From Burkholderia multivorans ATCC BAA-247 (lineage in GTDB: Bacteria > Pseudomonadota > Gammaproteobacteria > Burkholderiales > Burkholderiaceae), in assembly GCF_000959525.1 (NCBI RefSeq), contig NZ_CP009831.1:558001-622000 (forward strand): a stretch of 64,000 nt of DNA, given 5' to 3'. Shown piece by piece: positions 35,100 through 39,821 of the stretch. Numbering within the stretch: the first letter of the stretch is position 1; each line of letters starts with the position of its first letter. Under the pieces are notes generated by a model that was given only the letters and a program-made list of their open reading frames with translations, had not been told where the DNA came from and did no database searches. The translations under genes and the position numbers were made by a program.

Positions 35100-36341
35100 T
35101 TGAATCGTCAGCAATCGTGGACGCGTACGGCCGCGCCCGGCGAAATCATTTACGCAGAGGGTTACGCCGGCGAACCCGTCATCTTCTTGATCGCCGACGG
35201 CAAGGTCGAGCTATCCACGCGCTGCGACGACCAGCGCGTCGTGCTCGCGACGCTCGGGCGCGGCGAATTCTTCGGCGAAGCCGCGCTGCTCGCGGTCGAG
35301 CCGCGCGCGCATACCGCGAAGGCGCTGTCGTTCTGCCAGCTCACCGTCGTGCCGACGAGCGTGCTCGACGAAGAGATCGAGCGCGTATCGGCGCTGCTGC
35401 GCCATATCGTGCGCACGTCGATTCGCCGCGTGAAGCGCAAGGACGATCAGCTCGCGACCTACACGCATGCCGACTTCATGCCGGGCGTGCTGTCGTATGC
35501 GCACGTGCTCGCGCTGATGGGCGACGGCACCGCGCGCGAGACGGGCGACACGTGGGCGCGCCGGCCGCTGCACGTGCAGGCGGAGCAGGCCTCGGTGCCG
35601 CTCGTCGACGTGATCCGCAAATGCCGGGCGATTGCCGGCCATTCGCGTCCGCACGTGATGGCGATGCTGCGCCGCATGGAAAAGCTGAACCTCGTGACGA
35701 TCGAAGCCGCGTCCGTCGAAGCGGGCGGCGTCGCGCTCGAGCATTCGGCGTCGGCCGACGCGCGTCAGGTCGTCACGTTCGACGCGGCGCGCATCGTCGA
35801 TCGCGCGCAGCAGGTCGCCGATCACGATCTCGACCTGTCGATCAACAGCGAACTGGAGCTGATCGAGCTCGCCGATCTCGAATCGCTGATCGGCGTCGAC
35901 CGCAAGCTGCTGCTGAACAAGCTCGCGCACGGCGAAATCGCCGACGACGTGTTCGCGTTCCGCAAGTCGAAGGTGCTGAGCTTCGTCGAACGCAAAGGCG
36001 TCGCATATTTTTCGCGGCGCGATGCGCGGCGCTCGGCCGACGTGCGTGCACTCGAAGATCTCGTGTGGGTCGATCAGCGCACGCTGTTCGAGATCGTCAG
36101 CGCATTCGATACGTACGACCTCGCGAAGCTGATCGCGAATGTCGACGATCGCGCCGTGGCCGACCGGCTGTTTTCGGTGATGACCGAAGTGCGGCGCAAC
36201 GAGGTGTCGTGGGTGATGCGCCGCGACCTGAAGGTCGATCCGGTCGAAGTCGACGACATCGAGCGGCGTCTGCTCGACGCGGTGCGCGCGGCGAAGGCGC
36301 CGGCCGCCGGCGCGGTGCCGACGCCGGAATCGGGCGCCTGA
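35100..36341 (+). CDS. cyclic-nucleotide-binding protein with FliG-like C-terminal domain
   Basis: A 413-residue protein from a TTG start (AGGGGA seven bases upstream). Residues 8-110 are a cNMP-binding beta-roll with phosphate-binding cassette FFGEAALLAVEPRAHTA at 57-73. Residues 160-205 could be a Crp-like winged helix (VIRKCRAIAGHSRPHVMAML). Residues 315-397 resemble the C-terminal, stator-contacting domain of FliG (LEDLVWVDQRTLFEIVSAFD, DLAKLIANV). MotA and MotB genes follow directly. I infer a ligand-responsive protein that touches, or substitutes for, a rotor component. Ordinary Crp regulators are half this size. Confidence 0.7.
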   Translation: MNRQQSWTRTAAPGEIIYAEGYAGEPVIFLIADGKVELSTRCDDQRVVLATLGRGEFFGEAALLAVEPRAHTAKALSFCQLTVVPTSVLDEEIERVSALLRHIVRTSIRRVKRKDDQLATYTHADFMPGVLSYAHVLALMGDGTARETGDTWARRPLHVQAEQASVPLVDVIRKCRAIAGHSRPHVMAMLRRMEKLNLVTIEAASVEAGGVALEHSASADARQVVTFDAARIVDRAQQVADHDLDLSINSELELIELADLESLIGVDRKLLLNKLAHGEIADDVFAFRKSKVLSFVERKGVAYFSRRDARRSADVRALEDLVWVDQRTLFEIVSAFDTYDLAKLIANVDDRAVADRLFSVMTEVRRNEVSWVMRRDLKVDPVEVDDIERRLLDAVRAAKAPAAGAVPTPESGA

Positions 36342-36367
36342 CGCGCATCGGAACAGGGAGAAACGAC

Positions 36368-37132
36368 ATGGATCTGTTGACCTTGGCCGGTGTGCTGCTC
36401 GGCGGCGCGGCCATCGTATTCGGCTTCACGCTCGAAGGCGGACATCTGGCGACGCTGTTTCAGCTCGAAGCGTTCGTGATCGTACTGGGCGGCACGCTCG
36501 GCGCGGTGATGATCCAGAACACGTGGGCGCGCTTCGTCGATGCGGTGAAGCAGCTGCGGCTCGCGTTCGTGCGCGCGACGGCCGCCGATCGCAAGCATCT
36601 GTCCGATCTGCTCGAATGGGGCGACCGCGCGAAGCTCGAGGGGCTGCTCGCCTTCGAATCGATGGACGTGACCGGCATTCATCCGTTCGCGCGGCGCGGG
36701 CTCGAACTGCTCGCGAACGGCATGTCGACGGCCGTGATCGAGGATGCGCTGCAACGCGAACTCGATGCGTACGAGCGCAGCCACCTCGCGGCCGCACGCG
36801 TCTGGCAGCAGGCGGGCGGCTATGCGCCGACGTTCGGGATTCTCGGCTCGGTGCTCGGGCTCGTCCAGGTCACGGGCCACATTCTCGAACCCGCGCAGCT
36901 CGGGCCCGGCATCGCGGTCGCATTCGTCGCGACGCTGTACGGCCTGGCGTTCGCGAATCTGGTGTTTCTGCCGCTGTACGGGAAACTGCGTGCGCACGTC
37001 GACAGCGAGCTGCGGTTTCGCAAGCTGTATCTCGACGGGCTGCTCGCGATCTCGCGCAAGGAGTCGCCGCATACGATCGAAACGCGGCTGACCGGCGACG
37101 TGCGGACGCGCGCCGCGGAGTCGCTCGCATGA
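36368..37132 (+). CDS. MotA-like stator/proton-channel subunit
   Basis: A 254-residue protein in the MotA/TolQ/ExbB family and of MotA length. Four hydrophobic segments are seen: about 5-22, 33-51, 151-171 and 180-204. The conserved proline region APTFGILGSVLGL is at 153-165, with GPGIAVAFVATLYGLAFAN at 179-197. The cytoplasmic loop between segments 2 and 3 has the charged RAKLEGLLAFE stretch that in MotA contacts FliG. Paired with a MotB-like gene. No other flagellar genes are nearby, so this looks like an accessory stator. Confidence 0.88.
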   Translation: MDLLTLAGVLLGGAAIVFGFTLEGGHLATLFQLEAFVIVLGGTLGAVMIQNTWARFVDAVKQLRLAFVRATAADRKHLSDLLEWGDRAKLEGLLAFESMDVTGIHPFARRGLELLANGMSTAVIEDALQRELDAYERSHLAAARVWQQAGGYAPTFGILGSVLGLVQVTGHILEPAQLGPGIAVAFVATLYGLAFANLVFLPLYGKLRAHVDSELRFRKLYLDGLLAISRKESPHTIETRLTGDVRTRAAESLA

Positions 37133-37172
37133 CGCGCGCAATCGCGATGGCGTGCGCACCGGGAGCGCGGCG

Positions 37173-37829
37173 ATGAACGCACGAACCGACGCCGAGCGCG
37201 ACGACGACGACGCCGAAGGCACGCAGTCAGGACGCTGGCTGATCTCGTACGCCGATCTGATCACGACGCTGATGGTGCTGTTTCTCGCGCTGTACGTGCT
37301 GCAGCTCGCGAAAGTCAACGCGCTCGACGCGCGCGAGCGGACGCGCGCGCGGCTTGACGATGCGGTCGCGCGCACGGCCGAGCCGCAGGCGCCTGCGCGT
37401 GTGCCGGCATGGGTCGCGCAGCTCGAGGCGCTGAAGGCTGGCGGCCGCATCTCGCTCGTGCAAGCGCCGCACGGGATCGAGATCGGCATCGACGCCGGGA
37501 TACTGTTTCATGTCGGCGATGCGCACCTGCTGCCGGATGCGCTGCCCGTGCTCGAGCGGATCGCGCAGGCGCTCGGTCCGCACGCGACCGGCGACATCCT
37601 CGTCGAAGGGCACACCGACAGCGTGCCGATCGCGAACGCGAAGTACGAATCGAACTGGGAATTGTCGTCCGCGCGTGCGGGGGCGGTCGTCCGCTATTTC
37701 GCCGAGCGGGGCATCGCGCCGCATCGGCTCGCGGCCGTCGGCCGCGCCGATACGCAGCCGCTCGTCGCGGGCGACGACGCGTCGTCGCGCGCACGCAATC
37801 GCCGCGTGACGATCTTCGTCGCGTACTGA
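37173..37829 (+). CDS. MotB-like stator subunit with OmpA-type peptidoglycan-binding domain
   Basis: A 218-residue protein: acidic cytoplasmic N-terminus (residues 6-15), one membrane helix with the proton-carrying Asp28 in ISYADLITTLMVLF, and an OmpA-like domain with VEGHTDSVPI, SNWELSSARAGAVVRYFAE and SRARNRRVTI. Much shorter than E. coli MotB (308), closer to MotD/MotB2-type accessory stators. It anchors the MotA-like protein to the wall. The gene lies 40 bases after motA-like. Confidence 0.88.
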   Translation: MNARTDAERDDDDAEGTQSGRWLISYADLITTLMVLFLALYVLQLAKVNALDARERTRARLDDAVARTAEPQAPARVPAWVAQLEALKAGGRISLVQAPHGIEIGIDAGILFHVGDAHLLPDALPVLERIAQALGPHATGDILVEGHTDSVPIANAKYESNWELSSARAGAVVRYFAERGIAPHRLAAVGRADTQPLVAGDDASSRARNRRVTIFVAY

Positions 37830-37892
37830 TGCCGGCACCGGCATGTCGACGACATAAGCGATCCGATATGACGAACATCGAAATTCAGCAAT

Positions 37893-37919
37893 GAGGTTCG
37901 GCGCCCGCATGCCGATAAC
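37893..37919 (+). promoter_or_regulatory. sigma-28 (FliA) promoter of the chemoreceptor gene
   Basis: TGAGGTTC, an 11-base spacer, then GCCGATAA. The -10 is a perfect match to the sigma-28 consensus and the spacing is exact. It lies 40 bases before the chemoreceptor ATG. It places that gene in the flagellar late regulon. Confidence 0.8.
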
Positions 37920-37958: not shown

Positions 37959-39821
37959 ATGCATTTCTGGCGCAAGCTGTCCATTCAGAACAAGCTGATT
38001 CTCAGCATGACGAGCTGCCTGCTCGTCTTCGTCGCGATCTCGAGCGGGCTCAGCATCCGTCTGATCGGCGATGCCGTGCGCGATCGCGTCGTCCATCAGG
38101 AGCTGCCGACGGCCGTCAACGGCATTCGCGCGGACGTGCAGCGGCAGCTGGCCGGGCCGATCGCGGCGTCGCGCATCCTCGCGCGCGATGCGTTCCTGCT
38201 GCAGTGGGAAGCCGACGGCGAGCCCGACGCGGGCACGCGCAACTGGATTCAGCTCGCGCGCAACGTGAAGGACGAGCAGAAGGCCGCATCGGTGCAATGG
38301 GTGTCGGTGAAGAGCGGCAACTACTACAACGAAGCCGGCCTGCAGCGCAAGGTGACCGACCAGGATCAGTGGCTCACGCGCTTCCTGCAGTCCGGCGCGC
38401 CGTTCGAAGTGCACATGGACCACGAGGTGACGGTCGGCGGCTACATGATGTTCATCAACAGCCGCATCGAACTCGACGGCACGCCGATCGGCGCCGCGTG
38501 CATGAGCCTGTCCGTCGACGCGCTCGCGAAAGGGATCGCCACGTACCGGATCGGCGAAACGGGTTTCGCGTATCTGGTGCGGCCGGACGGCGCGATCATG
38601 ATGCATCGCGATACGTCGCTGATCGACGGCAAGCATTTCATGAAGGACACGCCGGGCCTGCCCGACGGCGCAGCGTCGGTACTGCTCGCCGGCAAGCCGT
38701 ATGCTTACCTGAGCTACGCCGGCGACGGCGGCGAGCGATTCATCGCGACGTCGTTCGTGCCCGAGCTGAACGCGTACGTGGTCGTCGAAGTGCCGGAGGC
38801 GGAACTGCTCGGGCCCGTCACGCGCGCGATCCACAGTGCGGCGCTCGTCGCGGCCGTCGTCGGGCTCGGCGTCGCGCTCGTCGTGATCTGGTTCGTCGGC
38901 CGCGCGATCGCGGCCCCGATTCGTCGTGCGGCGACGCTGCTGTCGGAAATCGCGAGCGGCCAGGGCGACCTCACGCGCCGGATGACGGTCGAGAGCGCCG
39001 ACGAGATCGGACAGCTGTCGGATGCGTTCAACCGCTTCGTGTCGTCGCTGTCGACGCTCGTGCACAGAATTCGCGCGGCATCGGCGTCGATCGCGACGGG
39101 CTCCGCGCAGATCGCGTCCGGCAACGCCGATCTCAGCGAACGGACCGAAGGACAGTCGAGCAATCTCGAACGTACGGCGTCGTCGATGGAGGAGATCACG
39201 GCCGTCGTGCGCAACAACACGGAGACGGCGACGACCGCCGCGAAGATGATCAACGGCGCATCGGAGACGGCCGCGCGCGGCGGGCAGGTCGTCGGCGAAG
39301 TGGTCAGCACGATGCAGCAGATCAGCGATGCGTCGCAGCGGATCTCCGAGATCATCGTCATGATCGACAGCATCTCGTTCCAGACCAACATTCTCGCGCT
39401 CAACGCGGCCGTCGAGGCGGCGCGCGCAGGCGAGCAGGGGCGCGGCTTCGCGGTCGTCGCGTCGGAGGTGCGCAACCTTGCACAGCGCAGCGCGCAGGCC
39501 GCGAAGGAAATCAAGGCGCTGATCGAGCACAGCGCGGGCACGGTCGACGTCGGATCGAAGCTCGTGACCGAAGCGGGCCGCGTGATGAGCGATGTCGTCG
39601 CGCAAGTGCAGGGCGTGAGCGCGATGATGAGCGAGATCGCGGAGGCGAGCCTCGAGCAGAGCGCGGGCATCGATCAGATCGGCGACGCGGTGCAGTCGCT
39701 CGATCAGATGACGCAGCAGAACGCGGCGCTGGTCGAGGAAAGTGCGGCGGCGGCCGAAAGCCTGCGGCAGCAGGCGGCGGAGCTGACGACGCTGGTTTCG
39801 GCGTTCAAGGTGGAGGAATGA
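37959..39821 (+). CDS. methyl-accepting chemotaxis protein with Cache-type sensor
   Basis: A 620-residue chemoreceptor: membrane helix at about 11-33 ([19 protein letters not shown]), periplasmic Cache-like sensor at about 40-285, second helix at about 292-315, HAMP at about 316-368 ([15 protein letters not shown]), then the signalling domain. The hairpin tip reads [20 protein letters not shown]. The C-terminus (AFKVEE) lacks a CheR/CheB-tethering pentapeptide. A sigma-28 promoter precedes it. The ligand is unknown. Confidence 0.93.

Follow-up and report, generated by a model that had tools for sequence, protein, structure and literature searches.

In Burkholderia multivorans ATCC BAA-247, a protein that joins a Crp-type nucleotide sensor to the torque domain of the rotor protein FliG is encoded directly ahead of its own MotA/MotB-like stator. 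This three-gene cassette lies in a window of 64,000 nucleotides (C2:558001-622000 of a 6.3 Mb genome in three contigs; unprefixed coordinates below are those of the window). We favor, with a probability of about 0.48, the reading that the fusion protein is a second-messenger-gated stator ligand, a brake or clutch on a dedicated MotCD-like stator. Among the best matches in the open-licence PMC literature, a scope with subscription papers outside it, no paper was seen to describe a fusion or cassette of this kind. We regard the cassette as a previously undescribed form of stator control by second messengers; there is a small chance that it is a categorically new kind.

The fusion gene (35100..36341, + strand, like all window genes given here; gene calls, Pfam and 80 related loci) encodes 413 amino acids (aa). 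Residues 9-94 (35124..35381) form a cyclic-nucleotide-binding domain with phosphate-cassette residues Glu60 and Arg69 (Pfam cNMP_binding, E 3.1e-18), residues from about 123 to 235 (35466..35804) a Crp-like winged-helix region, and residues 316-402 (36045..36305) a FliG C1-6 (torque) domain, recognized by Pfam, profile search, Foldseek and model superposition. After a gap of 26 bp comes a MotA-like stator gene of MotC type (36368..37132, 254 aa; NCBIfam PRK09109) and, after a further 40 bp, a MotB-like stator gene (37173..37829, 218 aa) whose product has a transmembrane (TM) Asp28 and a peptidoglycan-binding OmpA domain. The initial annotation, made from the sequence alone, had described the fusion gene with MotA-like and short MotB-like genes closely behind it, an N-terminal cyclic-nucleotide-binding domain and a possible Crp-like winged helix. 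This observation was confirmed, and the fusion protein does carry the CRP/FNR domain set of cyclic-nucleotide-binding domain plus winged helix.

On profile and modelling evidence, the C-terminal torque domain is of the FliG fold. A profile search with the C-terminus of the fusion protein returned FliG as the sole family, relatives of the fusion exceeded the Pfam FliG_C cut-off, and a reverse search gave FliG-like frames in two genomes. The predicted C-terminal model superposed on FliG over 85-87 residues at 1.6-2.0 Å; outside residues 311-400 the AlphaFold model is poor (mean predicted local distance difference test score 52.5, predicted template-modelling score 0.30; residues 1-130 in blocks of 26-42), and residues 236-310 carry no assigned fold. 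The resemblance to FliG had been proposed earlier, with an HHpred or AlphaFold comparison of the C-terminus as its check, and it survived this attempt at refutation by both structure and profile. The fusion protein thus shares with FliG the C1-6 fold, but differs in being joined to a Crp-type sensor, in lacking FliG_N and FliG_M, the domains that bind FliF and FliM (Pfam lists cNMP_binding and FliG_C only, and neither ring domain was found in the scanned relatives), and in location: the canonical FliG gene is on another contig (C3:3409943), whereas the fusion gene is on C2 beside motAB.

The linkage of fusion and stator is conserved. A pattern search gave 176 matches, of which 85 encoded a relative; the 80 loci retained represent Burkholderia, Paraburkholderia and one Caballeronia metagenome-assembled genome (MAG). 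Paraburkholderia xenovorans LB400, a soil strain used in the laboratory, is among the carriers (L071). The fusion gene was followed by motA and motB on the same strand in 79 of the 80; at the remaining locus, L085 of the Caballeronia MAG (46% identity), the contig breaks off at the fusion gene. All three genes were also present at 16/16 further loci, some of which may be of the same species as the 80. At one of these further loci (L130) the fusion gene matched in two frames and motB was in pieces. The C-terminal region was found in 58/249 genomes of the family and was absent from at least five of the same genus. A class survey gave matches at E up to 0.01 in 8/369 genomes: the host's own, four with strong matches (E 8e-30 to 1e-34) and three with weak ones (E 4e-4 to 0.01). 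Further, the cassette occurs outside Burkholderiales: G403 has the fusion gene, motA and motB, G414 has these three behind a cyclase gene on one strand, and in G529 a stand-alone cyclic-nucleotide-binding-domain protein of 157 aa (L139:5849-6322) is encoded between the fusion gene and motA, with motB following. The fusion proteins of four non-Burkholderiales genomes are 25-30% identical to the window's, and the MotA proteins of the distant cassettes 23-24%. The neighborhood survey that the initial annotation had called for thus showed conserved linkage with motAB, the lack of which that annotation had named as a refutation.

Full-length matches proved a poor route to these relatives. When 300 genomes of the order were searched with the full-length alignment A1, the matches listed beyond the own genome and one congener covered the sensor region, and of seven longer open frames six were sensor-EAL proteins and one the sensor domain alone; likewise, a full-length profile run against the PDB gave the sensor domain in all 60 matches listed. 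C-terminal alignments were therefore used to find relatives. Six proteins of about 400-470 aa from the same order (L090, L091, L092, L093, L094 and L099) carry a similar sensor domain with an EAL domain.

The stator looks intact and, judging by sequence, retains its rotor-contact residues. The MotA-like protein scored 254 bits against a cut-off of 237 for PRK09109, the MotC model, and the MotB-like protein fell below the MotD cut-off. Flagellar-type features are present: MotA family membership, TM prolines, the MotB TM aspartate and the OmpA domain. K89, E97, P154 and P202 of the MotA-like protein and D28 of the MotB-like protein are identical in 80/80 rows (the window plus 79 loci, L085 being left out), P154 and P202 being presumably the TM prolines. 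The host has a separate MotA-like gene (L007), which groups with longer MotA forms, and the excerpted text of a study of strain ATCC 17616 lists motB Bmul_0163 next to cheY Bmul_0164 (PMC8231446); the cassette pair is therefore most likely an extra stator. The mot genes named in excerpts of Burkholderia transcript papers are motB Bmul_0163 and motA BCAL0126. In Burkholderia terrae BS001, three motA/motB pairs and no MotCD appear in the excerpted report (PMC5462819), pairs not matched to this cassette.

In MotA trees, with row types named partly by NCBIfam, the cassette proteins of Burkholderia type clustered with MotC-type rows, and those of the distant cassettes with rows of the PomA type. 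Holding ten cassette rows (of 14) as one group was rejected (p-AU 0.00095), in a test with few rows and long branches that followed sight of the first tree, though the group was set by gene order. If the trees are right, one type of sensor-FliG protein has been joined to stators of two MotA lineages, and this argues for a working partnership. Like the MotCD auxiliary stator of Pseudomonas, the cassette pair would be a second stator, and its MotA-like protein, besides passing the PRK09109 cut-off, groups with two PRK09109-type rows of other genomes; it differs from MotCD in being encoded behind a sensor-FliG fusion and in the MotB-like protein's score.

How might such a protein act? In excerpts of the motor literature, FliG_C is held between MotA subunits with the torque helix in a cleft (PMC11302681), and YcgR inhibits by binding the MotA residues that contact that helix (PMC12713396). 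By analogy, the likeliest role for a soluble sensor that has a FliG_C fold but no ring-building domains is that of a gated ligand of this cleft. The output of the Crp-type sensor would be the FliG torque domain, which would hold the cytoplasmic face of the cassette MotA at the docking site of C-ring FliG. In one ligand state the docked domain would fill the site and keep the auxiliary stator from engaging or pushing the flagellar rotor; in the second state it would release MotA. Such a brake or clutch would work like YcgR, with a real FliG fold in place of the PilZ domain. Like the YcgR/FlgZ brake, the fusion would be a sensor of second-messenger type whose expected target is the face of MotA that contacts FliG (excerpts of PMC12713396 and PMC13432727), but YcgR consists of a PilZ domain and a C-terminal helix, whereas the fusion, in which Pfam found no PilZ domain, combines a sensor of Crp type with a true FliG fold and is encoded with a stator of its own. 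We infer MotA binding, nucleotide control and the inhibitory direction alike, and loading or activation of the stator is a serious alternative.

Several points weigh against the gated-ligand reading, beginning with the contact between fusion and MotA, which is a postulate drawn from sequence. The charged torque-helix residues of E. coli FliG, R281, D288, D289 and R297 (numbering placed on an ungapped alignment), are replaced in the Burkholderia-type fusions: position 281 is A, T or V, 288 is W, 289 is V, L or I, and 297 is D. By hand reading of the alignment, Arg is kept at position 281 in four relatives from other orders. Because the E. coli charges are absent while R365, E368, S370, W371, R374, R375, D380 and E383 of the torque helix are identical in 80/80 Burkholderia-type rows (without L085), the stator contact, if made, would be a remodelled one. 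On the MotA side, the residue at the place of K89 is uncharged in the distant cassettes; E97 is kept. Two relatives have no mot genes beside them, the fusion gene of G530 (L140) and a diverged relative in G704 of the own family (L142), the latter with no Pfam FliG_C match. In addition, H181, R183 and H185 of the recognition helix are invariant in alignment A1, which would leave room for DNA binding. Finally, cAMP (cyclic AMP) may not be the ligand, because neither a class III nor a class I cyclase was found in the host genome in a search covering these two classes.

The sensor pocket itself is strongly conserved. E60 and R69 are kept in 80/80 rows, L085 again being left out, and are invariant also in alignments A1 and A3, the pattern of cAMP-type pockets. 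A class III cyclase gene adjoins the fusion gene in G414 (L138; cyclase domain 31.8 bits against a cut-off of 21.9), and no homologue of this cyclase was found in the 80 loci searched. Cyclic di-GMP is a possible ligand; Bcam1349, a Burkholderia CRP/FNR protein, is reportedly a receptor for it. The first bacterial PDB match of the sensor domain was the cAMP-sensing Bd1971 of Bdellovibrio (6hq3, E 3.2e-14), the rows above it being eukaryotic kinases. The excerpted report gives E58 and R67 as the pocket residues of Bd1971, and describes Bd2879, a putative transcription factor, as having its sensor domain followed by two winged helices (PMC12750041); the term FliG occurs 0 times in that paper. 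The sensor domain is thus shared with Bd1971 and Bd2879, but in those proteins it is joined to an EAL enzyme or to putative DNA-binding domains, whereas the output of the fusion is a FliG domain.

That the likeness of a helical bundle to FliG arose by chance is very improbable. A single-sequence phmmer search with the window C-terminus did not find FliG, the Pfam FliG_C score of the window protein is only at the cut-off (21.7 or 23.9 against 23.3), the best Foldseek E of the fusion model is 2.3e-3, and VIA-align cautions that helical models can reach high scores by chance; this explanation is nevertheless largely refuted by the reverse search, the FliG-only profile search and the superposition, together with the relatives that pass the Pfam cut-off. 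We also think it quite unlikely that the cassette forms a motor of its own, in which the stator drives not the flagellum but the fusion protein, serving as its rotor or as the receiver of its force. Stator and FliG-type torque domain do form sets with no other flagellar gene adjoining, and canonical FliG is located elsewhere in these genomes. However, the fusion lacks the ring-building FliG_M, FliM is present in all five relative-bearing genomes (G414, G529, G530, G403 and G704; 7/8 tested overall, two of the three weak class matches included) and canonical FliG in these and the own genome (G000; 6/6), so that no cassette is known to work without a flagellum.

About as doubtful is the reading that the protein is a transcription regulator of the Crp kind, which merely took over a FliG fold for a use such as dimerization and lies beside motAB because these genes are its targets. 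Regulator genes are commonly linked to their targets, the winged helix has its invariant R183 and H185, and Bd2879, the putative transcription factor, ranked third in the Foldseek search (E 0.011); but the borrowed domain is the very one that touches stators. Of the readings offered by the initial annotation, a regulator or coupling protein for the stator is thus favored and a merely borrowed fold disfavored, because the neighbor is a stator in two MotA lineages. A long shot is that the stator serves as a force- or ion-flow-powered sensor: MotA would grip the FliG domain of a Crp-like DNA-binding protein, and stator rotation, membrane energy state or nucleotide binding would free or reshape a membrane-held transcription factor. 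If true, gene control would be coupled straight to a rotary motor, with no part played by the flagellar C-ring. The strongest of these rivals, still unlikely in our judgment, is that the nucleotide-bound fusion recruits or opens the stator, for example by tethering it close to the C-ring or by stabilizing its assembly, so that the stator is used conditionally. The domain and linkage evidence applies here equally, the stator appears fully active from its D28, P154 and P202, a dedicated stator must be engaged as well as blocked, and a stator chaperone, FlgX, is known in Campylobacter (excerpt of PMC6686046). Against it, no sequence sign of activation was seen, and a domain shaped like the rotor surface would more naturally compete with the rotor.

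The fold with which YcgR, the best-known second-messenger brake, reaches the stator is unrelated to that of FliG. In the cassette, the very part of the rotor that grips the stator has been transferred to a nucleotide sensor and has stayed next to a dedicated stator, in Burkholderiales and in other orders. This arrangement hints that a chemical signal may switch a part of the motor directly, and that signals of the cyclic-nucleotide type could control motors without going through transcription. The fusion also offers a natural soluble FliG torque domain for study of the MotA-rotor contact, and the cassette gives context to the extra stator of many Burkholderia and Paraburkholderia.

Behind the cassette lies a methyl-accepting chemotaxis protein gene (37959..39821), probably a neighbor rather than a member; with a close homologue in the fetched flank at 23/80 loci, this surrounding is less constant than the cassette. 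A sigma28-like site with two mismatches (37892-37918) stands just upstream of it. With the sigma28 consensus, the window scan gave 18 such sites against 14.7 expected, not above chance, and none shortly upstream of the fusion gene. A Paraburkholderia record (PGU19) names the cassette products 'cyclic nucleotide-binding domain-containing protein', 'flagellar motor protein' and 'OmpA family protein', and has a chemoreceptor gene directly upstream. G530, of another order, carries further FliG_C proteins other than FliG: one has 534 aa (L149:1486-3090, 57.9 bits), and the other is an open frame of 957 aa in which FliG_C matches twice (C77, L153). In the same genome the place expected for motAB, 3 bp after the fusion gene, is taken by the gene of a Yip1-domain membrane protein (L140:2670-3335), and elsewhere a chemoreceptor-like gene is directly followed by motA- and motB-like genes (L190:23-2885).
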